Part shown: positions 15,840 to 31,823 of the stretch, one piece after another
Numbering within the stretch: the first letter of the stretch is position 1
How the letters are laid out: each line of letters begins with the position of its first letter
Assembly: GCA_905479165.1 (NCBI GenBank)
Contig: CAJQLK010000108.1
Coordinates: 1 to 32,681, forward strand
DNA: 32,681 bases
Reading direction: 5' to 3'
Source of the DNA: an uncultured Flavobacteriales bacterium
Lineage (GTDB): Bacteria; Bacteroidota; Bacteroidia; Flavobacteriales; BACL11
Notes under the pieces: model-generated
What the model was told of the DNA's origin: nothing
Databases searched by the model: none
Seen by the model: the letters and a program-made list of their open reading frames with translations, nothing else
Translations under genes and position numbers: made by a program

Positions 15840-16610
15840 ATGACAAACTATTCAATTGTAAGTAAAAATTATGCAATTTATATTCTTCTATTTATTTTTA
15901 CTTTTTCCTCATGTATTACTAATCGTGATCTGGAGTATATTAGATCATCAAAAGAAATAAAAAATGCAAAAGTAAATAAGCAGGATTACAATTTGCAAAT
16001 GGGAGATTTGATATCAATTCAAATTAGTACTACTACAGAGCAGCAGCATGATTTTTTTAATAAAGAAAATTTAGCAAATTCTCAATTAATGGTGCAAAAC
16101 CCTTATCTCTTTGGCTATATTATTAAAGAGGATGGAAATCTTGATTTACCTTCATTTGGTAAGGTTAGGGCAGAAGGATTTACATTACAAGAGTTAGAGA
16201 ATGTAATAAAAAAAATTGCAGAATCTTACTTTGAAAGTCCAATAGTAAAGTTAAATATTATCAACTTTGAGATCAGTATACTTGGAGAGGTAAATAATCC
16301 GGGAACATTTAAGATTATTGATCCTGAAGTAAATATACTTTACGCTTTAAGTTTATCTGGTGATATGACTCAATTTGGAAACAGAAGAAAAGTTAAAGTT
16401 ATCAGAAACGAAAATGAATTGAACAGAGTTTTTTATGTTGATTTAACTAAAAAGGGAGTATTGAATAATGCTGATTTTATGCTACAACCTCATGACATTA
16501 TTTATGTTTCACCACTTAGAAAAAAATTCTATGCCTTTAATAATATAAGTAATATAGTATCAATGTCATTATCAGCAGTTACATTGTTTCTATTAATCAA
16601 TAATAATTAA
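15840..16610 (+). CDS. Wza-like polysaccharide biosynthesis/export outer-membrane lipoprotein
   Basis: Lipobox-like FTFSSC; YNLQMGDLISIQISTTTEQ, GYIIKEDGNLDLPSFGKVRAEGFTLQELENVIKKIAESYFESPIVKLNIINFEISILGEVNNPGTFKI (Poly_export/SLBB), LQPHDIIYVSP. Confidence 0.93.
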   Translation: MTNYSIVSKNYAIYILLFIFTFSSCITNRDLEYIRSSKEIKNAKVNKQDYNLQMGDLISIQISTTTEQQHDFFNKENLANSQLMVQNPYLFGYIIKEDGNLDLPSFGKVRAEGFTLQELENVIKKIAESYFESPIVKLNIINFEISILGEVNNPGTFKIIDPEVNILYALSLSGDMTQFGNRRKVKVIRNENELNRVFYVDLTKKGVLNNADFMLQPHDIIYVSPLRKKFYAFNNISNIVSMSLSAVTLFLLINNN

Positions 16611-16614
16611 GAAA

Positions 16615-18957
16615 ATGGCAAATCAATTAGATGAAATAATAGATTTTAGATACTTATTTTTTAAAATAATTAAGAATTGGCCACTTTTTGTGATCTCTTT
16701 ATTGCTTACTTTTTCTCTCGCTTTTGCTTACATTAGATACTCTCCTGAGATTTATAAAGTAGAAACTTCTTTCCTTATTAAAGAAGACAATACAATGCCA
16801 ACTGCTTCTGATTTGTTGTACAATAACATGTCGTCAGATAATGTAAGTTTAGAAAACAAAGAGTTGATGTTAAAATCATACCCTTTGATTCATAAAACTT
16901 TAAAAGATTTAAGATTTGATATTGGATATTATATTGTTGGAAATGTTAAAGTTTCGGAAACATTTCATGCTCCAATACTTTTAAATTGTAGTTCTACAGA
17001 AAAAGTTTCTGGAAAATCATTTGAGATAGAAATCCTTAATGAAAATAGTTTTCTGATGACAGATGAAGAAACTAGTGAAGTAAGGACTTGTAATTTTGAT
17101 GAAGAATTTATTTTTCATGATTCTGAAATGAGTGTAAGTATTAATACTAATTTTCAATTTAGTACTGAAATGAAACTCCCTAAGACAGTTATTAAATTTT
17201 ATAGTTTAAAATATCTTACTCAATCTTATCAAAAGAAGATAATTATATCACAAAAAGATAAAGAATCTACAGTTTTAAATATTTCTATTTTATCTGAAGA
17301 TCAGTTAAAGGGAGTTACCTTCTTAAATCATCTAACTTATAACTACATACAAAAGGAAATTGAAGAAAAGAATATAGCGTCAAATAATACTGTGAAATTT
17401 ATAAATGAGCAGCTTATTGAAATGAGCGATTCGTTAACTCTTATTGAACAGCGAATTCAGGAATTTAAAAATGATAATAAAGTAATTGATTTAAGTTTAA
17501 AGTCTCAAAGTATATATACAACTATTGTAACACTAGAAACTGAATTAGCAAAGAGTAAAACTATAAACAACTATTATGACTACTTATCAGAGTACTTACT
17601 AAAAGAATCTAATTTGGAAGGAATTAGTGTTCCCACCTCTTTTGGTGTTAATGATCTTTCATTAAACTCTCTAATAAAAAACTTAGTTGAAATTCAGATT
17701 AAAAAGAACATATTAATTGATGGTGGGCAAGTAAATAATCCTTCAATTTCACAATACAAAAGACAAACAAAACAGCTAGTTTTAAATTTAAAAGAAGCTA
17801 TAATAACTTCAAAAAGTGCAAATAATTTATTAATCACTGATTATAAAGCTAGAATAAGCAAGCTGGAAAGTTCTTTGGGAAATATTCCTCAAATTGAAAG
17901 GGAACTTTTTAGTATAGAGAGATTACGGTCAATCAGTGAGAATATTTATATTTTCTTATTAAAGAAAAGGGCAGAAGCTAAAATTACTTCGTCATCAAAT
18001 GTTTCAGATAGTAAGGTGCTTGAACCTGCAATATATTTTAATAAAAAACCAGTTAGTCCAGATAGAAATATTAGTTTCTTGATAGCATTATTAATTGGTC
18101 TTATATTGCCAATTATGTTCATGTTCATTTCTGAGTTAATAAAAGACAATATTATTACGCGAACTGATTTAGAGAGTTCTACTACAATTCCTATTTTAGG
18201 TATGATTGGGGGTAATGATAGTTCACATAATTTACTCTCTAAGCAAAATCCAAAATCTCCTGTTTTTGAGGGATTCAGAGCTTTACGTTCTAATTTAAAT
18301 TTCTTTAACACTAATTCTGAAAAGAAGGTTTATCTAGTGACCTCATCAATTAGTGGAGAGGGGAAGACATATATTGCTTCAAACTTAGCTATTGTTTATG
18401 CGAAATCGGGTAGAAAAACATTAGTAGTTGGAGCCGATTTAAGAAGGCCACGACTTTATAATGATTTTTCTTTGAAGAATAATTTAGGAATGACTAATCA
18501 TATATTTGGTGATAAGTCATTAAATGAGGTGATTATAAAATCAGATGTTGAAAATTTAGATATTTTAATTTCAGGCCCTGTACCAGCTAATCCTTCTGAT
18601 GCTTTACTTAATGAAAAATTCGAGAAAATGTTAACTTCCTTAAAAGAACAATATGATATTGTTATATTGGATACACCGCCATTAGGATTGGTAGCGGATG
18701 CCTTAACTTTAATGCAATATTCTGATATCAATTTGTATGTGGTAAGGCAGAGTTATTCTCAAAAAGGGATTTTATCATATGTAAATGATTTGTTTATTAA
18801 AAATAGAGTAGGAGATATACAAATTGTATTTAATGATGTTAAAGAAGGTAGTGGTGCCTATGGATATGGATATGGATATGGATATGGATATGGCTACGGC
18901 TACGGATATGGCTATACTAATAATTCAGAGTATTTTGCTGATAGCGAAAAGAAATAA
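16615..18957 (+). CDS. Wzc-like chain-length determinant / bacterial tyrosine kinase (BY-kinase)
   Basis: N-terminal Wzz-type TM segment, second TM near ISFLIALLIGLILPIMFMFI; Walker A SSISGEGKTYIASNLA, Walker A' VVGADLRRPRL, Walker B DIVILDTPPLG; C-terminal (YG)n tyrosine cluster. Confidence 0.95.
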   Translation: MANQLDEIIDFRYLFFKIIKNWPLFVISLLLTFSLAFAYIRYSPEIYKVETSFLIKEDNTMPTASDLLYNNMSSDNVSLENKELMLKSYPLIHKTLKDLRFDIGYYIVGNVKVSETFHAPILLNCSSTEKVSGKSFEIEILNENSFLMTDEETSEVRTCNFDEEFIFHDSEMSVSINTNFQFSTEMKLPKTVIKFYSLKYLTQSYQKKIIISQKDKESTVLNISILSEDQLKGVTFLNHLTYNYIQKEIEEKNIASNNTVKFINEQLIEMSDSLTLIEQRIQEFKNDNKVIDLSLKSQSIYTTIVTLETELAKSKTINNYYDYLSEYLLKESNLEGISVPTSFGVNDLSLNSLIKNLVEIQIKKNILIDGGQVNNPSISQYKRQTKQLVLNLKEAIITSKSANNLLITDYKARISKLESSLGNIPQIERELFSIERLRSISENIYIFLLKKRAEAKITSSSNVSDSKVLEPAIYFNKKPVSPDRNISFLIALLIGLILPIMFMFISELIKDNIITRTDLESSTTIPILGMIGGNDSSHNLLSKQNPKSPVFEGFRALRSNLNFFNTNSEKKVYLVTSSISGEGKTYIASNLAIVYAKSGRKTLVVGADLRRPRLYNDFSLKNNLGMTNHIFGDKSLNEVIIKSDVENLDILISGPVPANPSDALLNEKFEKMLTSLKEQYDIVILDTPPLGLVADALTLMQYSDINLYVVRQSYSQKGILSYVNDLFIKNRVGDIQIVFNDVKEGSGAYGYGYGYGYGYGYGYGYGYTNNSEYFADSEKK
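18859..18915 (+). repeat. Hexanucleotide repeat (TATGGA/TACGGC variants) encoding (Tyr-Gly)9-Tyr at the Wzc C-terminus
   Basis: Direct reading: TAT GGA x5, TAT GGC TAC GGC TAC GGA TAT GGC TAT; 19 codons, 10 Tyr. Confidence 0.95.
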
Positions 18958-18959
18958 CA

Positions 18960-19835
18960 ATGAAAAGTCAATATATTAATCCAAAAGTGATTGCAGAAAT
19001 TGGTTGCAACCATAAAGGAAATATGGATATAGCAAAAAAGTTGTTGAAAATAGCTTCAGTAAGTGGAGTTGAAGTCGCTAAATTTCAAAAAAGAAATAAT
19101 ATAGAACTATTGACAAAAGAGCAATATAATACTCCTCACCCTAACCCTATAAATTCCTATGGAGATACTTATGGAACTCATAGAGAGTTTTTGGAATTTA
19201 ATGTAGATCAGCATAGAGAATTGAAAGAATATGCTGAAAGTTTAGGTCTTATTTACTCTTCTTCTGTTTGGGATACTACATCTGCAAAAGAGATAAGCAA
19301 ATTAAAGCCTGAATTAATAAAAGTTCCTTCAGCATGCAACAATCATTTCGATATGTTAAAGGTTTTAAGAGATGATTATAAAGGAGAAGTCCATATTTCA
19401 TTTGGAATGACAACTAAAGATGAGGAAGAACAAATCGTATCGTTTTTTGAAGATACAAATCAAGGTAATAGATTAGTTCTTTATTCTTGTACTTCTGGGT
19501 ATCCTGTTCCTTTTGAGGATGTTTGTATGTTAGAAATCGTCAGAATTAAAGAGAAGTTTAAAGATAGAGTTAAAGCCATTGGTTTTTCTGGACATCATTT
19601 AGGAATTGCAGTTGATGTTGCAGCATATGCGCTTGGAGCTGAATGGGTTGAAAGACATTTTACTTTAGATAGAACTTGGAAAGGAACGGATCATTCAGCA
19701 TCCTTAGAACCTACAGGACTTAAAAAGTTAGCTAGAGATTTAAAAGCTACACATAAAGCGCTAACTTACAAACGATCAGACATTTTAGAGATTGAACAAG
19801 TTCAAAGAGATAAATTAAAATATAGAAAAAAATAA
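18960..19835 (+). CDS. NeuB-family nonulosonate (sialic acid/KDN-type) synthase lacking a C-terminal SAF domain
   Basis: VIAEIGCNHKGNMDIAKKLLKIASVSGVEVAKFQKR, IKVPSACNNHFDML, ISFGMTTKDEEE, YSCTSGYPVPFEDV, IGFSGHHLGIAVDVAAYALGAEWVERHFTLDRTWKGTDHSASLEP; ends about 30 aa after the barrel. Confidence 0.9.
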   Translation: MKSQYINPKVIAEIGCNHKGNMDIAKKLLKIASVSGVEVAKFQKRNNIELLTKEQYNTPHPNPINSYGDTYGTHREFLEFNVDQHRELKEYAESLGLIYSSSVWDTTSAKEISKLKPELIKVPSACNNHFDMLKVLRDDYKGEVHISFGMTTKDEEEQIVSFFEDTNQGNRLVLYSCTSGYPVPFEDVCMLEIVRIKEKFKDRVKAIGFSGHHLGIAVDVAAYALGAEWVERHFTLDRTWKGTDHSASLEPTGLKKLARDLKATHKALTYKRSDILEIEQVQRDKLKYRKK

Positions 19836-20974
19836 TGAGTGTAATTGCATTTATTCCAGCAAGAGGAGGTAGTAAATCTATTCCAGAAAAAAACATAAAG
19901 TCTTTCTGTGGTAAGCCTCTCATATTCTGGAATTTACAAGAATTACAAAACTCAAATGCAGACAATATTGTTGTTGCAACAGATTCTGAAAAAATTAAGA
20001 ATATTGTAAACTCATTTAACTTTTCAAAAGTAAGTGTTTATGATAGGAGCAATGAGAACTCTCAAGATATTTCTTCTACTGAATCTGTAATGTTAGAATA
20101 TATAAATAGTATAAGTCTATCAGACACTGACACTTTTATGTTAGTGCAAACTACTTCTCCATTTACTCAGAAAAATCATTTTAATGAAGGTTTAGAATTA
20201 TTTGAAAAACATGATGCTGTTCTGAGTTGTTGTGAGTCAAAAAGATTTTCTTGGAGAGATGGAAAATCCATGAATTACGATATTTACAACAGACCAAGAA
20301 GACAAGATTTTGAAGGTACTTTAATTGAAAATGGAGCTTTTTATATTTCTTCAGTTTCAGATATTAAAAAGACAAAAAACAGAATTTCAGGAGATATTGC
20401 TACTTATAAAATGCCAGAATTTACTTATATTGAAATTGATGAGCCAGAAGATTGGATTGTTGCTGAATCATTAATGAAAAAGTTTATTCTGAAAGATAAA
20501 AATCCAGATTTTTCAAAGATTAAAATCTTCTTATCTGATGTAGATGGAGTTTTGACAAATGCGGGAATGTACTATACTGAGAATGGAGATGAGTTTAAAA
20601 AGTTCTGTACTTATGATGGAATGGGGTTTCAGCTATTACAAAAAACAGGTGTTAAAGTCGGAATACTTACAACAGAAGATAGAGAGTTAAATAGAAGAAG
20701 AGCAAAGAAACTAGGTTTGGATTTTGATTTTCATGGTGCAAAGGATAAATTACAAATTGTTAAGGATTTATGTGAAAAGGAAAATATTTCCCTAGATGAA
20801 ATTGCATATATTGGTGATGATGTGAATTGTTTTGAACTCCTGTCAAATGCAGGAGTTTCTGCTTGCCCTATGAATGCAGTTTCTAAAATTAAATCTATTC
20901 CAAATATTATTCAACTAAAAAGGAATGGAGGTGATGGTGTTGTTAGAGAGTTTGTGGAAATAATACTTTCATAA
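19835..20974 (+). CDS. N-acylneuraminate/nonulosonate cytidylyltransferase fused to a KdsC-like HAD phosphatase
   Basis: N-half: IPARGGSKSIPEKNIKSFCGKPLIFW, VQTTSPFTQKNHF; C-half: KIFLSDVDGVLTNAGMYYTENGDEFKKFCTYDGMGFQLLQKTGVKVGILTTE...IAYIGDDVNCFELL. Confidence 0.92.
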   Translation: MSVIAFIPARGGSKSIPEKNIKSFCGKPLIFWNLQELQNSNADNIVVATDSEKIKNIVNSFNFSKVSVYDRSNENSQDISSTESVMLEYINSISLSDTDTFMLVQTTSPFTQKNHFNEGLELFEKHDAVLSCCESKRFSWRDGKSMNYDIYNRPRRQDFEGTLIENGAFYISSVSDIKKTKNRISGDIATYKMPEFTYIEIDEPEDWIVAESLMKKFILKDKNPDFSKIKIFLSDVDGVLTNAGMYYTENGDEFKKFCTYDGMGFQLLQKTGVKVGILTTEDRELNRRRAKKLGLDFDFHGAKDKLQIVKDLCEKENISLDEIAYIGDDVNCFELLSNAGVSACPMNAVSKIKSIPNIIQLKRNGGDGVVREFVEIILS

Positions 20975-20975
20975 A

Positions 20976-21749
20976 ATGAAATTTTGGAGGGATATAAAGG
21001 ATTTTATACTTTCTTATTATTATCCCAAAAATCAATATTTTTTAGTTTCTTTTCCTAAAACTGGTCGTACTTGGCTTAATTATATGCTAAAACAAATGGT
21101 TAAGCAAAGTAATCATCCACTAAAAAATAATGAAAATTTTATATGTAACGAACATGATAGTTCTGAGATAATTATTGAAAATGGAACAAGAAACAACCCT
21201 CATGATGTTTTTAAATTTACTTCAAGAAATAGATACAGGAGAGGAAAGGTTTTATTTTTGGTAAGAGATCCTAGAGATGTTGTTGTTTCTCATTTTCATC
21301 AGGTAACAAAAAGAGCAAAAAACCCTTTTGTTTTTAACTCAATCTCGGACTTTGTTAAAGATGATATTTTAGGTTTTAAACGAATTATACAATATTATAA
21401 CCTGTGGTTTTTTCAAAAAGATATTCCTAAAGACTTTTTGTTAATTAAATATGAAGATTTACTAAATCAAGGAGTGGATACTTTGTCTGAAATTAATAAG
21501 TTTTTTAATATTAATATTACCAAAGATAAAATTGAGAAAATTTATTCTGAATCTTCTGCAAATAAGATGAGAAAGAAAGAAAAAGAAAACAAGCTAGAAG
21601 GTTTTACGGATTTTGGAAAAGATAGAGACAAGTTAAAGGTAAGAAATGCAAAAAGTGGTGGTTTTATAAACGAACTTTCAGAAGATGATATTTTGTTTTG
21701 TAATAAGGAAATGAAGTTGTTAAATATTTATTATAAATACAAGACATGA
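20976..21749 (+). CDS. PAPS-dependent sulfotransferase (Sulfotransfer_1 type), copy 1
   Basis: 5'-PSB loop FLVSFPKTGRTWLNYML; 3'-PB motif VLFLVRDPRDVVVSHFHQ; DFLLIKYEDLL. Confidence 0.88.
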   Translation: MKFWRDIKDFILSYYYPKNQYFLVSFPKTGRTWLNYMLKQMVKQSNHPLKNNENFICNEHDSSEIIIENGTRNNPHDVFKFTSRNRYRRGKVLFLVRDPRDVVVSHFHQVTKRAKNPFVFNSISDFVKDDILGFKRIIQYYNLWFFQKDIPKDFLLIKYEDLLNQGVDTLSEINKFFNINITKDKIEKIYSESSANKMRKKEKENKLEGFTDFGKDRDKLKVRNAKSGGFINELSEDDILFCNKEMKLLNIYYKYKT

Positions 21750-22828
21750 TAAATTTATTCATTTCATTTTACTACTTTATAAAACTCTTTTTCAAGAAGC
21801 AAGGAATAGATGTTGTTTTCTATTATCCAAAACACTTTAATAGAGGAGAAGACAATCAGAATCTATTCTTAAAACCACTATTTGAAAGTTGCAAAAAACA
21901 TAATATTTCCTATTTAGTTTTTGAGGAACCTGACATAAAATCTGATAAGAAAAGACATAAAAAAAGCATTCCGTTCGACTTTCCTTTTTATTTAATTGTT
22001 CTACTTAGGAAATTTGGTTTTAGAGATAAGTCCTCTGCAAATATCTTATTATTTCTTTTCCTCAGAAACCTAAAATTTAAGAATGTAATTGTTCTTTCTC
22101 AATCTCTTATTGAATTTTTCAGAGGGTTAGATAAGGAAGCAAAAATATTTGATTTACAGCACGGAATTATCTTTTCAGATAAGAAGAGTTATATTTCAGA
22201 TGGTAAGGCAAATTCGAATATTTCGGATGATAATGTTCAGTTATTACTCTTTGGGAATGGATTTAAAGAAATTCTAGATTTATCAGATAATACAAATTAT
22301 TATAAGAAAAGTTCTCATGTAATTGGAGTTGAAATATCAAAATATTTTCGACATTTTAACCCAAATAGAATGGTTTTAATTACGTTACAAATCACAGAAG
22401 ATCATACTGAGAAGCAAAACAAAAAAATGTTAGATGAAATTATTAAAATTGTTGATTCTAATAAAGATTTATGTTTCTATATTAGGAATCATCCTAGGTT
22501 TAATAACTGTATTGATATTAGTGAATTAGAAAGGAAAACAAATAAAGCTCCAGAAAGTTTAATGGAGTGTTTTGCACTTTGTTCAATTCATATTACCGAA
22601 TATTCTACAACTATTTTTGAGTGTGCAAAATTTGGTATTCCAACAATTTTTATTAGTTCATTAAAGGAAGATTTTAATATGTTTGAAACAGATTTTAAGT
22701 ATCCTTTTGACATTGAAATTGTAGATGTTATAAAGGATTATAGTAATTACTCTGATGAAGTAATTAGTTGGAGAAAAAAATACTATTCTGATTATGATGA
22801 AGATAAATTTATTTCATTATTAAAATGA
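21746..22828 (+). CDS. Putative GT-B fold glycosyltransferase/polysaccharide biosynthesis protein of uncertain family
   Basis: DLQHGIIFSDKKSYISDGK, YIRNHPRFNN, CSIHITEYSTTIFECAKFGIPTIFISS resemble nucleotide-sugar/CMP-binding GT-B motifs. Confidence 0.5.
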   Translation: MINLFISFYYFIKLFFKKQGIDVVFYYPKHFNRGEDNQNLFLKPLFESCKKHNISYLVFEEPDIKSDKKRHKKSIPFDFPFYLIVLLRKFGFRDKSSANILLFLFLRNLKFKNVIVLSQSLIEFFRGLDKEAKIFDLQHGIIFSDKKSYISDGKANSNISDDNVQLLLFGNGFKEILDLSDNTNYYKKSSHVIGVEISKYFRHFNPNRMVLITLQITEDHTEKQNKKMLDEIIKIVDSNKDLCFYIRNHPRFNNCIDISELERKTNKAPESLMECFALCSIHITEYSTTIFECAKFGIPTIFISSLKEDFNMFETDFKYPFDIEIVDVIKDYSNYSDEVISWRKKYYSDYDEDKFISLLK

Positions 22829-23859
22829 GAAAAAAGATATTTTTAGGAGCTTATGTAAATGTAATTAATGCGCAAAACATTAATTGCAAATCTATTGCAT
22901 TTCATCTGGATAAAAATAAGTACTCAGTAAAAACTCTTGTTTTAGGAAATAAAAATATTGAGATATTAGATAATGTAAGTTTTATTAAAGTCTCAACTTT
23001 AGGATATAAAATTTCAAATTTATTTGCATTTATTAAAGGTGTGCTATGGGCTGATGTTTGTTATTTTCCAAAACATCAATCAACACCAAAACTTGCTTTA
23101 AAACTTGCTAATCTACTAGATAGGAAAACTTTCACTACTATTGAAGGAAACATGTGTGATACAAGCAAAAAAAGTATGATTGAGAATTTTGGAACTTTAG
23201 AAAATATGAAAAGCCACTTTTCTATGATTCCTAATGTTTTTGGAATTACACCACACTTAATTCTGTCATCTAATTGTGGTGTTTTAATAAATAAGAACCC
23301 CCTTTTTCTTGGTGTAGACAAGAATAATTTTAAGAATAAAGGTGTTAAGAGTAAAGTTAAGAATTTGGTTTTTATTGGTAGTCTTATAAAAAGAAAAAAC
23401 CTTAACGATATTTTAGATTTGGCAAAACACTTTAAGAATATTACATTTAATATAATTGGAGATGGTCCCCTAAAAGATGAATTGGAAAATAAATCAACAA
23501 CTAATGTTATTTTTTTTGGAAAATTAAATTCTTATGAGATTTCAAATCATTTACAGAATATGGACTTGCATATTTTATTGTCTAGGTCTGAAGGTTTTCC
23601 GAAAGTAATCTTAGAGACTGCATCATCAGCTATTCCATCAATATTGTATGATGATTATGGTGCAGATAGTTGGATAAACCATTCAGAAAATGGTTTTGTT
23701 GTTTCTACTTTTACAGCAGTAAAAAGTATAATTGATAATTTAATTGAAAATCCTGATTTGTTGATTAGAAATTCAGAAAATGTTTTAGAACTTGCTGAAA
23801 AATTTGATTGGAAAATAATTATTAAATGTTGGGAAAAAGTAATTGATAATTTAAAATGA
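22825..23859 (+). CDS. Glycosyltransferase family 4-like protein
   Basis: LVFIGSLIKRKNLNDILDLAKHF, NIIGDGPLKDELE, LHILLSRSEGFPKVILETASSAIPSILYDDYGA. Confidence 0.85.
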   Translation: MRKKIFLGAYVNVINAQNINCKSIAFHLDKNKYSVKTLVLGNKNIEILDNVSFIKVSTLGYKISNLFAFIKGVLWADVCYFPKHQSTPKLALKLANLLDRKTFTTIEGNMCDTSKKSMIENFGTLENMKSHFSMIPNVFGITPHLILSSNCGVLINKNPLFLGVDKNNFKNKGVKSKVKNLVFIGSLIKRKNLNDILDLAKHFKNITFNIIGDGPLKDELENKSTTNVIFFGKLNSYEISNHLQNMDLHILLSRSEGFPKVILETASSAIPSILYDDYGADSWINHSENGFVVSTFTAVKSIIDNLIENPDLLIRNSENVLELAEKFDWKIIIKCWEKVIDNLK

Positions 23860-24680
23860 TAGAATATTTAAAAGATAAATATTATTGGTTTAAAACGTAT
23901 AATAAACTAAATCTTTTCCTAAAAGATAAGGAAGAATCTATTCTTTTATTTGGTTATCCGAAAAGTGGGAATACATGGTTTAGGTTATTAATTTACAATT
24001 ACTTAAACCTTCAGGGTGATCAAAATTTAGGGTCGACTATTTCTTTTGATGAGTTAAATAGCCAGCAAAATAATGTAATGGACAGAGGTTCTGTTTTTTT
24101 ACCAGAAAATAGTTTTCCACTTTTTTATAGGACTCATAAGATTTATAATAGACCTTATAGCTTATTTAATAATAAAATTTTCATTCACAGAAATCCGTTA
24201 GACACATTAATTTCAGCTTATTATTTTTATAAAAAAAGAGATATTCCATTCTCTGGTGATCCTGTAAATTTAAGAGAAAAGCTGATGGATATAGATTTTT
24301 ATGTTTCTTATAAAATTAATTTCTGGATAAAGTATTTCAGAATTTCAGTAAAGAAGGCGGATATTGTTATGAACTATTCTGATATGAAAAATGATACAAG
24401 AAAAGAATTAACAAAATTAGTTCAGTTTTTAAATTGGGATTTGGATGAAGGTCTTATTAAAAAATCAGTGGAATTCTCATCATTTAATAAAGTAAAAAAA
24501 ATGGGAAAGGAGCAATCTCAACAATATGGAAATGGTCCTAAGGATGGAAGTTTTAAAGGTGAATTTACTAGAAATGGAGAGGAGGGACAGTTTAATAATA
24601 AACTTAAAAAAGAAACTATTGAACTGGTCTTGCATAAATTCCCAGAATTTAAAAATCTATACCCAAATTTAATTGAATAA
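23856..24680 (+). CDS. PAPS-dependent sulfotransferase, copy 2
   Basis: ILLFGYPKSGNTWFRLLIYNYL; IFIHRNPLDTLISAYYFYKKR; C-terminal GSFKGEFTRNGEEGQFNNKL. Confidence 0.88.
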   Translation: MIEYLKDKYYWFKTYNKLNLFLKDKEESILLFGYPKSGNTWFRLLIYNYLNLQGDQNLGSTISFDELNSQQNNVMDRGSVFLPENSFPLFYRTHKIYNRPYSLFNNKIFIHRNPLDTLISAYYFYKKRDIPFSGDPVNLREKLMDIDFYVSYKINFWIKYFRISVKKADIVMNYSDMKNDTRKELTKLVQFLNWDLDEGLIKKSVEFSSFNKVKKMGKEQSQQYGNGPKDGSFKGEFTRNGEEGQFNNKLKKETIELVLHKFPEFKNLYPNLIE

Positions 24681-25806
24681 TAAAGAAACATATTTGGTGA
24701 TTACTCCATTCTTTCCTTCAGAAGATGCTTTTGTTGGAAGTTATGTTTATGACCAAATTAATGAGATTTGTAAACAATCTGAATTTCATATTGAAATTGT
24801 TAAATTGGTTTCTTTTTTCTCTACCGAGAAAGATTATATTTTTAAAGGTTTTAGAGTGTCAGTTTTTAAAGTTATTGATATTCCTTTTTTTATTTTCCCA
24901 GCTATATTTAATAGCTTAAATAAAATCAGACTTAAAAGTTTTTTAAAGAGACAAAAAATAAATAGTGTTAAGTTTTCACATTCTCATGTTTCTTATCCTG
25001 CATCTTATTTAGCAGAAGATCTAGATTGTAAAAAAATTGTTCAACATCATGGATTAGATGTTTTACAATTGTTAATTGGAAGAAGTCGTTTTGCTAGAAA
25101 AATACAAAAGAATTTCCTTATTAAAAACAGTCTTAATCATTTAAACAAAGCAGATTTGAATATTGGTGTTTCACAATTAGTTTTAGATAAATTGAATGAG
25201 TTTAAGGGTTATTACCCAAAAAACGAATTAGTTCTGTATAATGGGGTAGATACTTCAAAATTTTTCCCTTTAAAAAATGATTGTAATAAAATATTCACAA
25301 TTGGATGTGTTGCGAACTTTTGGGAGATAAAAGATCATATAACTTTAATAAAGTCAGTTAAAAAAATAGTTGAAAAAGGCAAAGAAATTAAACTCAGATT
25401 AATTGGGTCAGGCCCTACTTTAAGTTTTTGTGAGGAGTTTGTGAAAAACAATAATCTTTCTAAAAATATTATCTTTGAAAAAGAGATAGAACACGAAAAA
25501 CTAAATCAGTTTTTTAACGAAATTGATTTATTTGTATTGCCTTCCTATTATGAAGCACTTGGGTGTGTTTATTTAGAAAGTTGGGCAACAAACACTCCTT
25601 TTATTGGCGTTAAAAATCAAGGCATAGCTGAGCTTGTCCCTGATTCTGAAAGGATGTTAGTTTCAGAAAAAAATCCTAATGAGTTAGCAGTAAAAATAAA
25701 TTTTTTCATTAATAATGATTTTAAATTAACTACTGTAGAAGAATTTTCTTTAGAAACTACAATTTCTAACTTCCTTCTTAATAAAATATTCAGAGCTAAT
25801 GATTAG
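24673..25806 (+). CDS. Glycosyltransferase family 4-like protein, apparent TTG start
   Basis: YLVITPFFPSEDAFVGSYVYDQINEI, HGLDVLQLL, ELVLYNGVDTSKFFP, LFVLPSYYEALGCVYLESWATNTPFIGVKNQGIAELV. Confidence 0.88.
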   Translation: MNNKETYLVITPFFPSEDAFVGSYVYDQINEICKQSEFHIEIVKLVSFFSTEKDYIFKGFRVSVFKVIDIPFFIFPAIFNSLNKIRLKSFLKRQKINSVKFSHSHVSYPASYLAEDLDCKKIVQHHGLDVLQLLIGRSRFARKIQKNFLIKNSLNHLNKADLNIGVSQLVLDKLNEFKGYYPKNELVLYNGVDTSKFFPLKNDCNKIFTIGCVANFWEIKDHITLIKSVKKIVEKGKEIKLRLIGSGPTLSFCEEFVKNNNLSKNIIFEKEIEHEKLNQFFNEIDLFVLPSYYEALGCVYLESWATNTPFIGVKNQGIAELVPDSERMLVSEKNPNELAVKINFFINNDFKLTTVEEFSLETTISNFLLNKIFRAND

Positions 25807-26467
25807 ATATATATTGAGAAATTACCGTAATTTAAAATATGCTAATTCGCAAAAACATAAGGTAGGAAAGGAGGGTAGTTTGCTACATGCATTTCACCAA
25901 ACTAAAACTGTTTTTATACATATTCCTAAAACAGCTGGAATTTCGCTTTTAAAAGCTATATATGGTAAAGTATCTTTAGAAAGTCATAGAACCTATGAAT
26001 TTAATAATTTGATATTAGGTATTACAAAAAATCAATATTTCAGCTTTTCATTTGTTAGAAATCCTTTTGACAGGCTTTATTCTACATATAATTTCCTTCA
26101 GAAAGGTGGAATAAATAAGCTTGATGTAACTTCATTTCAAAACCATCTTGCTAAACATACTGATTTTGAAGATTTTGTATTAAACGGATTAAATAAAAAA
26201 ACTATTTTTCAAGTTACTCATCTATTGCCTCAATCTTATTTTATTTGTAATAAAAAAGGTGAGGTGTTGGTTAGCTTTGTAGGTAGATTTGAGAATTTAA
26301 TAGCTGATGTTAATCATTTATCAGAAAAACTTGGAAAGGAAATTAACTTAGAACATCTAAATAAAAATAAAAAAAGAAGTTATAAGGAAGTCTATTCCCA
26401 AGAAATGATTGAAGTTGTCAATAAGGTTTATGAAGATGATTTAAGAATATTTAATTATGAATTCTAG
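25799..26467 (+). CDS. Sulfotransferase family 2-type protein, copy 3
   Basis: TVFIHIPKTAGISLLKAIYG; YFSFSFVRNPFDRLYSTYNFLQ; LLPQSYFI...VSFVGRFENL. Confidence 0.87.
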   Translation: MIRYILRNYRNLKYANSQKHKVGKEGSLLHAFHQTKTVFIHIPKTAGISLLKAIYGKVSLESHRTYEFNNLILGITKNQYFSFSFVRNPFDRLYSTYNFLQKGGINKLDVTSFQNHLAKHTDFEDFVLNGLNKKTIFQVTHLLPQSYFICNKKGEVLVSFVGRFENLIADVNHLSEKLGKEINLEHLNKNKKRSYKEVYSQEMIEVVNKVYEDDLRIFNYEF

Positions 26468-27919
26468 ATGTTAAAACTGATTATTAGACAAGCTAATTGG
26501 GGAATATTGGGTTCAATATTTGCTGTTGCTATTGGTTTTTTTGTTAAGATTTATGTAATTGACATTGTTGGTATTTCTAATTGGGGAAAATATGTTTCAG
26601 CACATACCTTTTCAACATTTATGGATGTCTTTCTGACTTTTGGAATTCCTGTAGTAATTGTAAAATTCTTTCCTGATTTATGGAAAGTAAATAAGGAATA
26701 TGCACTTCAATTTTTATCAAAAATCCTTAAACTTTCATTTGTATTAAGTTTCGTTCTAATTATAGCTCTATATTTTGTTTCTCCTCTTTTAGATAGATTT
26801 GTATATACTAATATTGATGGGTTTTCATTAGTACTTTTTCTAATTGCTTTACATACTCCAATTTCAATATTTACTGGAATAATTACTGCATTATATAGAT
26901 CAGTTTTAAAAATAAAGGAAATAATAATATATAGTACAGTTATAACTGTTCCAATTCGTGCAATATTAACTTTTATAATTTTTCAATACACAAACAATAT
27001 TTTGTATTTTATTGGAATTGAACTTTTTACAACTTCTTTGTCATTATTACTTTTGTTCAGAAGATTCAATAAGGACGAATTTAAACTATTTAATCATTCA
27101 GTAAGTCCTGACTTTTTTTGGGACAATAAGATGGTTTCCTATGGTAAAAAAATGTATGCTAATGCAATAGTTCACTTCTTTTCTGCACAGTCTTTACGAA
27201 TAGTTTTAAGTATTGCTCTCCCTCCTTTAAAACTAGGTGTTTATAGTATATTATTATCAATTACTGGTGTTGCCATGTTTTTAATAAAAAATCTTAATCA
27301 GGTATTCGCCCCAGCAATTGCAAAATTGTATAAGGAAAAGAAAATAGATGAGCTAGATAAATTGTTTAAAAAAACAACTTTTATTGTAAATTTAATAACT
27401 CTTCCTTTTATGATTATTATTATAATTTTTACAGATGAGATATTAGGGCTTTATGATAAATCAGGAGATTTAATAGCATACAAACCATATTTATTTTGTC
27501 TAATGATAGCAAGAATGATATCTTTATTTGCAGGAAGTTCAGGAGCATTTATGATAATGGCAGGATTGGAACAGAAGGAACTTAAATTGCAAACAATTAA
27601 GGCAGTATTAATAACTATTTTAGCAATAATTTTAGTTAATAAATTTGAATTGATTGCAATTGTATCATTATTTATAGGATTTATGTTATTCATTAATATT
27701 TCACAACTCATTTACATAAAACGTAATATTAAGATATCTCCATTTAGCTCAGATTTATTAAAATTAATCCTTTTAACAATTCCATTGCTTTATTTTTCTA
27801 TCATAAATAATTATAATTTTAGTATTTTAGAAATTACACTAACACCTTTTCTAATATATTTGTTATTCTTTGTATTATTTATTAAACAAATAAAGGATAT
27901 AGTAAAGATTGTAAGATGA
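26468..27919 (+). CDS. Polysaccharide flippase (Wzx/MATE-like, oligosaccharide_synt)
   Basis: About 12 hydrophobic segments; NWGILGSIFAVAIGFFVKIYVIDIVGISNWGKYVSAHTFSTFMDVFLTFGIPVVIVKFFPD is typical of Wzx N-termini. Confidence 0.9.
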   Translation: MLKLIIRQANWGILGSIFAVAIGFFVKIYVIDIVGISNWGKYVSAHTFSTFMDVFLTFGIPVVIVKFFPDLWKVNKEYALQFLSKILKLSFVLSFVLIIALYFVSPLLDRFVYTNIDGFSLVLFLIALHTPISIFTGIITALYRSVLKIKEIIIYSTVITVPIRAILTFIIFQYTNNILYFIGIELFTTSLSLLLLFRRFNKDEFKLFNHSVSPDFFWDNKMVSYGKKMYANAIVHFFSAQSLRIVLSIALPPLKLGVYSILLSITGVAMFLIKNLNQVFAPAIAKLYKEKKIDELDKLFKKTTFIVNLITLPFMIIIIIFTDEILGLYDKSGDLIAYKPYLFCLMIARMISLFAGSSGAFMIMAGLEQKELKLQTIKAVLITILAIILVNKFELIAIVSLFIGFMLFINISQLIYIKRNIKISPFSSDLLKLILLTIPLLYFSIINNYNFSILEITLTPFLIYLLFFVLFIKQIKDIVKIVR

Positions 27920-29055
27920 TAAAGTGGCTATTTAAATATGGGGCGGTAATATTTCTGTTTAATACAGTACTTTTATCAATAGAGAGCACATTCTATTTGG
28001 GCAACCAAATATTCCTAGCTATAATGGGAATATTTACTATTTTTTTATTAATAAATCCAATTCTGATAAAGATAGTGATTTTTCATAAAGCTTTTTCATT
28101 TCTATTGGTTATTAACATTTTAAACTTACTGTATTTTATATTTTTTCATTCAGTTTTTGATATTGAAGCCATACAATATTTACTTGCTAGGGCAATGCAG
28201 TTTTCAATTATCTCTATTTCAATATATTTTCATTTTGATTATTATAAAACACAATTTTTAAATCATATTGCTATTATAGTTTTATTTATTGTAATTTTAA
28301 GTTTATTATTTTATCCTAATGTTTTCTCTGGCAGATACGAGGGCATTATCTGGAATTCAAATATGTTAGCATCATTTATTGTTATTGCTTTCTCAATATT
28401 ATTTCTAAAAAATAAAGATAAAAGTTTAAGAGATTATATACCCTTATTTCTTTTATTAGTTATTGCTTTGGCTACAGGATCAAGAGGTGCATTAGTTGGT
28501 CTTGCAATTTGCATCGGATTAAAATATGGCTTTAGCTTAAGAAATATTATATATTCTATAATAGCTTTTTCAATCTACTTTATCGTTTCAAGTATTAATC
28601 TAGACACAAGTATAAATAGATTTGCAGAACAAAGTATTTTTAACGATAGGATTGAACAAGCTTTTTTTGCAATTGAGAATATTAATAAAAGTTTATTTTC
28701 AGGATATGGATTAAATGAATACTCTGGCCTACCAAAAGATATAAGTTTACCAAAAAGATTTAAAGGACAAATAATGACATCACATAATGGTTATCTTTCT
28801 ATTTTGTTACAATATGGAGTTTTGTTTGGAGGATTTATACTAGCGTTAATATTTGTTAAAGCATCTCAGCTAATTTCATTCTTTAGGTTTAGTAATGATT
28901 CAGAGAAAATATTTATCTTTATTATAATCTATACGTTTGTATCTTCAATTTATGAAACATTAATTACGGGTATTAATGAATTTCATACTATCCTTTTTTG
29001 GTTCTCTTTAGCTTTCCTTTCTTATTCAAAGTTTAAAAAAGATTATGAAAATTAA
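27916..29055 (+). CDS. O-antigen polymerase/ligase-like protein (Wzy)
   Basis: Polytopic membrane protein; WNSNMLASFIVIAFSILFL, ALATGSRGALVGLAICIGLKYG, MTSHNGYLSILLQYGVLFGGFIL (Wzy_C-type loops). Confidence 0.87.
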   Translation: MIKWLFKYGAVIFLFNTVLLSIESTFYLGNQIFLAIMGIFTIFLLINPILIKIVIFHKAFSFLLVINILNLLYFIFFHSVFDIEAIQYLLARAMQFSIISISIYFHFDYYKTQFLNHIAIIVLFIVILSLLFYPNVFSGRYEGIIWNSNMLASFIVIAFSILFLKNKDKSLRDYIPLFLLLVIALATGSRGALVGLAICIGLKYGFSLRNIIYSIIAFSIYFIVSSINLDTSINRFAEQSIFNDRIEQAFFAIENINKSLFSGYGLNEYSGLPKDISLPKRFKGQIMTSHNGYLSILLQYGVLFGGFILALIFVKASQLISFFRFSNDSEKIFIFIIIYTFVSSIYETLITGINEFHTILFWFSLAFLSYSKFKKDYEN

Positions 29056-30046
29056 AGTATTTAATAATAAAGAAGATATCCTAATTTTAAAAGAGGATTG
29101 GGAAGCACTTTTTGATAAAGGAAATTATTCTTTTTTTCAATCTTTTACCTATTGCTATAATTCAATTTTAAAGTACTCAAAACCATTTATTATTTGTTAC
29201 TATGAAGATAGAAAGTTAGTTGAAATATGGCCTCTAGAGTTGAAAAAAAATAAACTTTTATTTATTAATGATACTCATGCGGATTTCTGTGATATTATTT
29301 CTGAAACAGCTTCATTAACAGTTGTAGATTTTCTTAAGGAGAATAAGCTGGCAAGTAAACTAAGATTAAAAAACCTAGAAAAAGAAAGTATTGCTATTAA
29401 GAAGACAGAAAGTATAAAAGTGAAAGATGTTTTATTTAGTCTAAATTATTCATTACTTAAGCTTGAAAAATCTGATAATTTTCCTTCTAATTTTAATCAC
29501 TTTATCTACAGACAAAAAAGGCGGTTAAAACGAATTCTTAGCAAGTATCAATACAATACTATGTTTTATGAGATTGAAAGTTCAAACTTTCCTATTGAGA
29601 AGATAAAAAAACTTAGAATACAAATGATTGAATTAGAAATTAGAAATCATAAGTTTCTAGATGATGATTTAATTTCACTTACTGAAAATCTTTATAACGC
29701 AGGAGTTTTAGTTGTTTATGAAATTTTAGTAGAAAATAATACAACAGCAATTTCATTAATCTTTAAAAAAGATTATTATTATTCTTTTTGGATAGATTTA
29801 TTTAACGACCAACAGATGATGAATTTAGTAAGTAATACTGCTTTTATTAAAAAAAATACTGAAAAAAATTCTGCTACATTCAATTTTGGAAGAGGGGTTT
29901 ATAGGTATAAAATTCAGAATTTTGGACCTAAAGTGATTCCGTTATTTGAATTAAATACCTACAGTACAGAAGTTGAAAAACACTTGTCTTTATATTTAAA
30001 ATCAGCTAAACGAGTTTTAAAGAAACTTTATAAAAAATTTAGATGA
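29045..30046 (+). CDS. FemAB/GNAT-like (BioF2/CelD-type) acyltransferase
   Basis: WEALFDKGNYSFFQSFTYCYN, IYRQKRRLKRILSKY, AISLIFKKDYYYSFWIDLFNDQ, ATFNFGRGVYRYK. Confidence 0.65.
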   Translation: MKIKVFNNKEDILILKEDWEALFDKGNYSFFQSFTYCYNSILKYSKPFIICYYEDRKLVEIWPLELKKNKLLFINDTHADFCDIISETASLTVVDFLKENKLASKLRLKNLEKESIAIKKTESIKVKDVLFSLNYSLLKLEKSDNFPSNFNHFIYRQKRRLKRILSKYQYNTMFYEIESSNFPIEKIKKLRIQMIELEIRNHKFLDDDLISLTENLYNAGVLVVYEILVENNTTAISLIFKKDYYYSFWIDLFNDQQMMNLVSNTAFIKKNTEKNSATFNFGRGVYRYKIQNFGPKVIPLFELNTYSTEVEKHLSLYLKSAKRVLKKLYKKFR

Positions 30047-31098
30047 AAATATTCTGTTATTTTGTTGAGCCAGCATCTTATACGCTAGATTTAGCAAAGA
30101 ATGTTTATGATAAAAATAAAATTGATTATTGTTTTATCAAATCTAGATCTTTAGTTAAATCTGATTCAAAATCTAATAAAGAAATGCTAAGTGAGAAGTC
30201 TATTTTTGATAAGATTAGGTTTATTGTAAAGATATTTAAAGAAAATAATATGATTATTATAAATGGCTATAATAACTATCCTTTTATACTAACCTTTATT
30301 TTAAATGTTTTTTCTTGTAATAAGAGGTTAATTGCAACAGAATCAGATACTCAATTACAAATTCCTGTTAATCCAATAAAAAGATTTATCAAGTGTATTT
30401 ATTTATCAATTATCTTTAGAAACAAATATATTTTAGGTTTTTCTGGAGGGAACGACTCACATAAAGACCTTTTTAGGCACTATGGAATGGAGGATAAAAG
30501 GATATTTTTAATGCCAATGATGGTCGATAACTCTAAATTTTATCAAAAAAATAAAGTTCTTCCAGAAGTTTTCTATTTTCTTTATGTTGGAAGACTTCTT
30601 AATCATAAAAATGTTGAAGAACTTATTAAAGTATTTAAATCAAGATTTAACACTTTAAATGCTGAGCTCAGGATAGTCGGAGAAGGAAAGGAAGGAGGAT
30701 ATTTGAGAGATAAGTATCAATCAGAAAAAGTAAAGTTTGTAGGAAAAAAATTTACAAAAGATCTTATTGAAGAATTTCAGAAAGCATCATGTTTAGTATG
30801 TCCTTCAAAATTTGAGCCATGGGGATTGGTTGTAAATGAAGCATTATCAGCAGGATTACCTGTAATTGCAACTAAAGAGGTTGGAGCTTCATTTGACTTA
30901 ATAAATGGAAAAGAAACAGGCTATGTAGCAGCCAATATGACTGAGTTTGGAGATTATATGGTAGCGCTTTTTAATAATCCTAAAAAGCTAAAGGTGTTCT
31001 CTAAAAATGGATCTGATTTGATGCAAAATAAATGGAATTATGATTTTTATAATTATTGCTTAAATAAATCAATAGATAAAGTTAAAAAATGGCACTAA
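30043..31098 (+). CDS. Glycosyltransferase family 4-like protein
   Basis: FLYVGRLLNHKNVEELIKVFK, LRIVGEGKEGGYLRDKY, CLVCPSKFEPWGLVVNEALSAGLPVIATKEVGASFDLI. Confidence 0.9.
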   Translation: MKIFCYFVEPASYTLDLAKNVYDKNKIDYCFIKSRSLVKSDSKSNKEMLSEKSIFDKIRFIVKIFKENNMIIINGYNNYPFILTFILNVFSCNKRLIATESDTQLQIPVNPIKRFIKCIYLSIIFRNKYILGFSGGNDSHKDLFRHYGMEDKRIFLMPMMVDNSKFYQKNKVLPEVFYFLYVGRLLNHKNVEELIKVFKSRFNTLNAELRIVGEGKEGGYLRDKYQSEKVKFVGKKFTKDLIEEFQKASCLVCPSKFEPWGLVVNEALSAGLPVIATKEVGASFDLINGKETGYVAANMTEFGDYMVALFNNPKKLKVFSKNGSDLMQNKWNYDFYNYCLNKSIDKVKKWH

Positions 31099-31823
31099 GT
31101 ACAAGAATAAGAATTTTATTAGTCAATTTTGCTTCACTTTTTTATTTCAAGAAAAGGAGTAAGGTTATTTTTTATCATGATATTCATTCTGATAAAAAGT
31201 ATACTGAAATGTCAACTCCAATTGAGGTCTTTAAAAATCACATACAAATTATCTTAGAAAATGGGTATGAGATTGTCGCTGAAATCACTAAGCCTATTGG
31301 ACAAATAGAAATTTGTTTTGATGACGCATTTCTAGGATTATTTGAAAATATCGAAATGATAAAAAAACTAAGAATTCCAATACAATTATTTGTAATTTCT
31401 TCATATTTAAGTAAAAAGAATCATATTAACAAAGAACAGTTAATTGAATTAAATTATAATTCTCTTTTTACAATATCTTCGCATACTAGGTCACATAAAA
31501 TATTAACTGATATTTCTGATGATGAGATTATAGTAGAGTTGAAAGATTCTAAATCTGAATTAGAAGAAATTTTAGGTTGTGAAGTATCTGCAATTTGTTT
31601 TCCTGAGGGTAAATTTAATAATAGAGTTGTTCAAATAGCTAATTCCTTAAATTATAAAAAAATGTACTCATGTATACCTGGATTTTATTACAATGAAGTT
31701 TTCCATATGGTAAAAGGAAGAAGTTTAGTGCAGTTTGCAAATAAAACTGAGTTTGATTCAATTTTAAAAGGTGGGGATCACTTACTATCATTTTGGTATA
31801 AATATAAATATTATAAAAAATGA
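31089..31823 (+). CDS. Polysaccharide deacetylase (CE4/NodB-like)
   Basis: VIFYHDIHSD, IEICFDDAFLGLFEN, FTISSHTRSHKILTDISDDEIIVELKDSKSELEEILG, ICFPEGKFNNRV. Confidence 0.8.
   Translation: MALSTRIRILLVNFASLFYFKKRSKVIFYHDIHSDKKYTEMSTPIEVFKNHIQIILENGYEIVAEITKPIGQIEICFDDAFLGLFENIEMIKKLRIPIQLFVISSYLSKKNHINKEQLIELNYNSLFTISSHTRSHKILTDISDDEIIVELKDSKSELEEILGCEVSAICFPEGKFNNRVVQIANSLNYKKMYSCIPGFYYNEVFHMVKGRSLVQFANKTEFDSILKGGDHLLSFWYKYKYYKK

Follow-up and report, generated by a model that had tools for sequence, protein, structure and literature searches.

We propose that the stretch of DNA analyzed here (the window: contig C108, 32,681 nucleotides, of an uncultured Flavobacteriales MAG of 1.47 Mb in 108 contigs) very probably contains most of a Wzx/Wzy surface-polysaccharide locus, whose product would be a nonulosonate polymer, the nonulosonate being probably KDN, sulfated by three dedicated PAPS-dependent enzymes (ST1, ST2 and ST3). 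An earlier note on the same DNA had predicted a sulfated capsule or exopolysaccharide, and this reading is supported at the level of the genome by the assignment of the three proteins to genuine PAPS sulfotransferase families, by the Wza/Wzc/Wzx/Wzy operon in which they lie, by a PAPS gene set in the same genome and by conservation across the family.

Operon organization and conservation

ORF calls and Pfam searches delineate one co-directional, overlapping polysaccharide operon that runs from position 15840 to the contig end (Table 1) and unites Wzx, Wzy, Wzc and Wza in a single locus; an initiating phosphoglycosyltransferase was not recognized among the window ORFs scanned. The single overlapping operon of the earlier note is borne out by the overlaps of successive genes between ST1 and ST3 (4, 4, 4, 8 and 8 bp), with wzx beginning on the base right after ST3. 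Its description of sulfotransferases interleaved with glycosyltransferases holds for two of the three spacers, but not securely for the first, a 360-aa ORF that in NCBIfam bears a faint resemblance to a BFO_1060-type glycosyltransferase (29.5 bits, the cut-off being 200). Beyond the truncated glycosyltransferase at the contig end, the locus continues in relatives (L051) with a carbamoyltransferase, a GT2 glycosyltransferase and a glutamine amidotransferase.

Table 1. Predicted genes of the polysaccharide operon, with the matches or context on which each assignment is based.
Feature	Position	Strand	Length	Basis
Wza-type outer-membrane polysaccharide export protein	15840..16610	+		PF02563 E 8e-14; SLBB domains
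Wzc-type chain-length / export kinase	16615..18957	+		PF02706, PF13807, PF13614
NeuB-type nonulosonate (probably KDN-9-phosphate) synthase	18960..19835	+	291 aa	PF03102 E 5e-65
CMP-nonulosonate synthetase fused to KDN-9-phosphate phosphatase-like HAD domain	19835..20974	+		PF02348; NF058599 KDN-9-PPhBT 171 bits
ST1, Sulfotransfer_1	20976..21749	+	257 aa	PF00685 E 7.5e-23
ORF, possible glycosyltransferase	21746..22828	+	360 aa	No Pfam match; weak NF046086; kept in block (synteny)
Group 1 glycosyltransferase	22825..23859	+		PF00534 E 1e-21
ST2, Sulfotransfer_1	23856..24680	+	274 aa	PF00685 E 4e-19
Group 1 glycosyltransferase, TTG start	24673..25806	+		PF00534 E 1.5e-24
ST3, Sulfotransfer_2	25799..26467	+	222 aa	PF03567 E 2.5e-17
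Wzx-type flippase	26468..27919	+		PF13440, PF01943
Wzy-type polymerase	27916..29055	+		PF04932 E 4e-12
Conserved block ORF	29045..30046	+		No Pfam match; synteny
Group 1 glycosyltransferase	30043..31098	+		PF00534 E 9e-28; present in 25/52 family genomes
Polysaccharide deacetylase-like	31089..31823	+		PF01522 E 9e-17
Group 1 glycosyltransferase, truncated by contig end	31820..32680	+		PF00534

The nonulosonate that the earlier note expected in the product is consistent with the NeuB and NeuA genes present, and we would now refine it to most likely KDN. The NeuB-type protein matches NeuB (PF03102) as its sole Pfam domain and falls under the cut-offs for Neu5Ac and Pse synthases; the NeuA-HAD fusion reaches 171.3 bits against the KDN-9-phosphatase equivalog NF058599 (cut-off 180), other phosphatase models scoring far lower. 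No NeuC was recognized in the window. KDN is hence proposed because NeuA is fused to a KDN-9-phosphatase-like domain and no NeuC lies near.

DNA read around the locus in relatives reveals a block whose gene order is common to several genera, mostly at 35-95% identity, of an uncultured family with small genomes (0.8-2.1 Mb) that is represented here by uncultured genomes only. Because this order recurs in about 20 genomes, a chance arrangement of the predicted locus is excluded. The wza- and wzc-type genes remain attached to the block in relatives, and it is this retention of export genes at the head of the operon that makes it unlikely that the product is a sulfated O-antigen or LPS side chain instead of a capsule or exopolysaccharide, even though the Wzx/Wzy logic is shared by both and the polymerase matches a Pfam model that bears the name O-antigen ligase/Wzy_C.

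Relatives differ in the modification slots but share a steady backbone of genes. ST1, ST2 or both are missing from the backbone block of some genomes, and all three sulfotransferases from that of a few; the ST1 slot is taken in several relatives by a 463-471-aa protein without Pfam match, and the ST3 slot in others by a protein of about 200 aa together with an HPr-kinase-like protein of about 366 aa. A GT11-like gene is sometimes inserted in the block, and one branch has a second nonulosonate set. Of 392 genomes sampled from the order, 36 encode an ST3 orthologue; most of these belong to the window's own family, and the named records among them (uncultured Flavobacteriales) are presumably marine, judging from their isolate names. 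The window's ST3 shares 96% identity with that of genome G078 and only 56% with that of G028, although the other block genes share 73-94% identity with G028, and its dS in the latter comparison is 1.10, against 0.10-0.57 for those genes; we therefore consider it probable that ST3 was exchanged by recombination. In Shewanella, Cellvibrio, Aquimarina and others, relatives of ST3 adjoin cys and glycosyltransferase genes.

The earlier note regarded sulfated polysaccharides as relatively rare in bacteria outside a few groups. For the underlying genes this must be qualified, as PF00685 is found in 158 of the 392 genomes of the order, and sulfotransferases are near-universal in the family (51/52 genomes, versus 107/340 from other families of the order, in raw counts that ignore kinship).

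The three predicted sulfotransferases and their probable acceptor

The PAPS-binding motifs and coordinates that had been given for the three genes are right, and an HMM check places all three proteins above the curated Pfam cut-offs (22 bits for both families), with scores of 81.7 bits for ST1 and 69.4 bits for ST2 against PF00685, and of 64.3 bits for ST3 against PF03567. The motifs are FPKTGRTW and VRDPRDVVVS in ST1, YPKSGNTW and HRNPLDTLISAY in ST2, and IPKTAGISL and VRNPFDRLYST in ST3. Their description as dissimilar genes, unlikely to be recent duplicates, likewise stands: ST1 and ST2 share 25% identity and ST3 aligns with either over short segments only, and we reject duplication as their relationship.

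Sequence searches against the PDB return SULT-type relatives for ST1 and SULT matches, down to 6e-14, for ST2; the same search returned no match for ST3. The AF2 model of ST3 (pLDDT 92.7) has as its closest PDB entry the heparan-sulfate 6-O-sulfotransferase 5t03 (probability 1.00, with a modest best E-value of 5e-3 and a modest TMq of 0.49), and each of its 29 best PDB matches is a sulfotransferase, with both carbohydrate and cytosolic types among them. ST3 thus models as a PAPS sulfotransferase fold nearest to heparan-sulfate 6-O-sulfotransferase.

These comparisons bear on the acceptor. The PF00685 family acts on a broad range of acceptors, lipids, proteins and small molecules are all sulfated by enzymes of these folds, and the solved structures closest to ST1 and ST2 are those of cytosolic SULTs acting on small molecules, so that the three enzymes might modify a sulfolipid, a glycoprotein or a small molecule and be merely co-located with the operon. 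We judge this improbable, given that the sulfotransferase genes overlap glycosyltransferase genes and hold fixed positions in the block across genera, and that ST3 is structurally closest to a heparan-sulfate enzyme. Under the preferred reading, that of a sulfated polymer, we would expect a product with ester sulfate and a division of labour among ST1, ST2 and ST3.

Supply and probable use of PAPS

In agreement with the earlier note, a Pfam scan recognized no cysC, cysD or cysN among the window ORFs that it covered. That note had called for an APS kinase to be sought elsewhere in the genome and had held that its reading would fall if a PAPS pathway were missing; genome searches found cysC on another contig, together with cysD, cysN and cysQ. 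Contig C81 carries cysD-cysC with cysQ nearby, and C24 the remainder of cysD and cysN, the contig break falling inside cysD. In better-assembled relatives the cys genes form a single locus (locus B), with the order cysN-cysD-cysC, then a divergent deoC-like gene, cysQ, wzx, two to three sulfotransferases, wzy, an epimerase, two more sulfotransferases, glycosyltransferases, gmhA and a gmhB-like gene; C81 and C107 hold parts of it in the window's own genome, which encodes at least 8 PF00685 proteins and one PF03567 protein. By gene content, the PAPS synthesis and recycling set is complete in this genome outside the window, and the genome has two predicted sulfotransferase-rich polysaccharide loci, that of the window and locus B.

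Sulfate activation in this family does not appear to be followed by reduction. APS kinase is found in 43 of 52 family genomes, including all 15 of high quality. PF01507 covers both CysD and CysH, which we told apart by size, score and position beside cysC; the strong matches in the family, of about 302 aa and beside cysC, are CysD, and the few extra matches are weak. CysH was not recognized: in none of the 15 high-quality genomes did a second, CysH-like PF01507 protein reach a normal score, and sulfite reductase (PF01077) was found in none of these 15 and in one of all 52. The same searches on 14 control genomes gave a PF01077 match in 11 and a PF01507 match in all 14. The MAG of the window is 82.65% complete, which makes the absence of a single gene there weak evidence, and the argument from absence rests on its relatives. 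As APS kinase is present while CysH and sulfite reductase were not found, PAPS in this family looks dedicated to sulfation, and reduced sulfur would be drawn from organic compounds. It could be objected that PAPS also feeds assimilatory reduction, the relevant genes having been missed through incompleteness or divergence, many of the genomes being partial and one relative (G261) indeed encoding sulfite reductase together with a PF01507 protein of its own kind; with neither CysH nor sulfite reductase recognized in any high-quality genome and matches so frequent among the controls, we give this little credence.

APS kinase without either CysD or Sat is found in eight genomes from five genera (G047, G093, G207, G123, G177, G137, G142 and G237), and in all eight cysC is adjoined by a nucleotidyltransferase of the HUP type of about 158 aa (HUP158), NMNAT-like, with the motifs GRFQPYHQGH and ISATKIR. 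Its sole match is PF01467, and it belongs neither to PF01747 (Sat) nor to CysD/PF01507; the nine cysD-bearing loci that we read do not contain it. A class-wide search returned no HUP158, but its listed sample included none of the known carriers, so that this result carries no weight. On haloarchaeal plasmids (Haladaptatus, Natrinema and Halocatena) the same domain forms the C-terminal part of a fusion with APS kinase, with a sulfotransferase alongside, and in IMG/VR viral contigs it is fused or adjacent to APS kinase (70-76% identity). Since HUP158 stands beside cysC where CysD and Sat are missing, and is fused to APS kinase elsewhere, its context suggests that it may be an ATP sulfurylase of a third type; adenylylation of NMN is the rival function. 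The structure model is of low confidence (pLDDT 53). A role as a heptose nucleotidyltransferase of locus B, where gmhA and gmhB-like genes occur, was considered and dropped, as no heptose model matched and the gene tracks cysC and the absence of CysD. We found no description of a fusion of APS kinase with an NMNAT-like domain in the partly accessible literature, which is weak evidence of novelty. The broader proposition, that a streamlined marine family devotes its sulfate metabolism wholly to sulfated surface glycans and that five genera within it rely for APS on a compact NMNAT-like enzyme, a third independent ATP sulfurylase, is one that we hold in even balance.

Predicted sulfation pathway and known systems

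We posit that CysDN would convert sulfate to APS and CysC would convert APS to PAPS, from which ST1-3 would transfer the sulfuryl group, in the cytoplasm, to hydroxyl groups on the lipid-linked repeat unit or on its precursors; the unit would then be flipped by Wzx and polymerized by Wzy, and Wzc/Wza would export the polymer, with CysQ removing PAP. Sulfation would hence precede flipping, and the donor genes lie in locus B, the genome's other predicted locus for a sulfated polysaccharide. Alignments indicate that ST1 and ST2 orthologues keep both PAPS-binding motifs (5'-PSB and 3'-PB), with YRTH and YPKSGNTW invariant among those of ST2, and that candidate catalytic His residues are conserved among sulfotransferase orthologues; those of ST1 occur in 12 other genomes. 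Comparison of the window with two congeners gives dN/dS values of 0.12-0.31 for ST1-3 (0.13 and 0.31 for ST1), which point to purifying selection. That the three homologues are inactive as sulfotransferases and serve another role is a very remote prospect in view of these conserved PAPS contacts, histidines and selection.

If this proposal is true, sulfated polysaccharide would be a core trait of a whole uncultured ocean family. Sulfated glycans are seen mainly as algal products and are hard to degrade, and a bacterial source would be added to the marine pool. The swapping of modification slots on a constant backbone would provide a natural series for assigning sulfotransferase specificity, and activation without reduction predicts a need for reduced organic sulfur.

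Several components of the proposed pathway have known counterparts. The KDN pathway of Bacteroides thetaiotaomicron comprises a KDN-9-P synthase, a phosphatase and a CMP-KDN synthetase; the window resembles it in its NeuB-type synthase, KDN-9-phosphatase-like domain and CMP transferase, with no NeuC nearby, and differs in that the phosphatase is fused to the cytidylyltransferase and scores just below the NF058599 cut-off. Sulfated exopolysaccharide of the synechan type is known from cyanobacteria (PMC13125312). It resembles our prediction as the product of a bacterial gene cluster with sulfotransferases, but comes from another phylum and another gene set. The predicted use of PAPS as a sulfation donor, made by ATP sulfurylase and APS kinase, is shared with Marine Group IIb archaea (PMC6864105) and Entamoeba (PMC13213808), organisms unrelated to the window's family; the former study classes these genes under assimilation.

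The closest parallels are found in Cobetia marina KMM 1449 and Vibrio sp. KMM 8419, which have capsule clusters for a CPS that was shown chemically to be sulfated (PMC11766843, PMC11641403), the Vibrio paper terming PAPS genes and sulfotransferases a hallmark (PMC11641403). Those clusters likewise combine polysaccharide genes, sulfotransferases and a cysNDC PAPS module (plus cysQ in Cobetia), but in one region, whereas here the PAPS genes reside in the sister locus B of the same genome. Theirs rely on ABC-transporter export and yield a rhamnose-containing CPS, in contrast to the predicted Wzx/Wzy system, nonulosonate and three sulfotransferases of the window, whose gene order is conserved across a family in which sulfate reduction genes were not found. 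The literature, to which access was partial, yielded no account of this locus or of a whole family of marine flavobacteria that activates sulfate without reducing it; such silence is weak evidence for novelty. Loci for sulfated capsules with PAPS genes are hence a kind already known; what is new here is a predicted Wzx/Wzy, nonulosonate locus with several sulfotransferases, conserved across a family that appears not to reduce sulfate.

Variable modification genes of the polysaccharide operon

The third predicted sulfotransferase of the operon (ST3, 25799-26467) shares 56% identity with its counterpart in a congener (G028; stretch L051:9563-10234), and the wzx next to it is 94% identical between the same two genomes; judged from these sequences, a single sulfotransferase allele has probably been swapped within the operon. 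In relatives, other proteins occupy these slots (L148:1875-3272, L148:6563-8267, L164:5325-7025): in place of ST1 stands a ~465-aa protein without a Pfam match, in place of ST3 a ~200-aa protein together with one that resembles HPr kinase, and these perhaps provide an alternative decoration, conceivably phosphate. The last glycosyltransferase is followed in relatives by a carbamoyltransferase (L051:1335-3059), at a position corresponding to just beyond the window's contig end, and the polymer may also be carbamoylated. One branch (L056:1260-5641, L058) carries a further NeuB/NeuA-like pair, accompanied by a UDP-GlcNAc 2-epimerase and an acetyltransferase, which suggests an N-acylated nonulosonate there, besides or instead of KDN.

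A second predicted sulfation locus

A second, predicted sulfated-polysaccharide locus is linked to cysN-cysD-cysC and cysQ, and adds four or five sulfotransferases plus gmhA/gmhB-like genes.

A nucleotidyltransferase beside cysC

Eight genomes of the family, from five genera, have APS kinase and lack both CysD and Sat; in every one of them (8/8) cysC is adjoined by a ~158-aa NMNAT-like nucleotidyltransferase, a candidate third type of ATP sulfurylase. Within the family, G202 alone carries a Sat-type ATP sulfurylase (PF01747; contig C9:49694-50329). G261 (contigs C69, C78) alone encodes sulfite reductase together with a PF01507 protein other than CysD, representing either a remnant pathway or contamination.

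The same nucleotidyltransferase domain also occurs fused to APS kinase on haloarchaeal plasmids, where the fusion adjoins a sulfotransferase gene, and on viral contigs, where a DUF2061 protein follows it.

Predicted sulfation-related features by stretch (L) or contig (C)
Feature	Location	Context
~158-aa nucleotidyltransferase	L162:5825-6301	beside cysC
~158-aa nucleotidyltransferase	L161:12348-12821	beside cysC
~158-aa nucleotidyltransferase	L159:17983-18459	beside cysC
~158-aa nucleotidyltransferase	L166:9621-10097	beside cysC
~158-aa nucleotidyltransferase	L167:5786-6262	beside cysC
~158-aa nucleotidyltransferase	L168:7938-8414	beside cysC
~158-aa nucleotidyltransferase	L169:7531-7992	beside cysC
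~158-aa nucleotidyltransferase	L170:6929-7396	beside cysC
APS kinase fusion	L177:7488-8345	haloarchaeal plasmid
APS kinase fusion	L178:7275-8345	haloarchaeal plasmid
APS kinase fusion	L179:7506-8360	haloarchaeal plasmid
APS kinase fusion	L185:1871-2947	viral contig
APS kinase fusion	L186:2392-3468	viral contig
Second locus	C24 (L013), C81 (L012), C107 (L014)	window's own genome
Second locus	L156+L157; L158	complete copies
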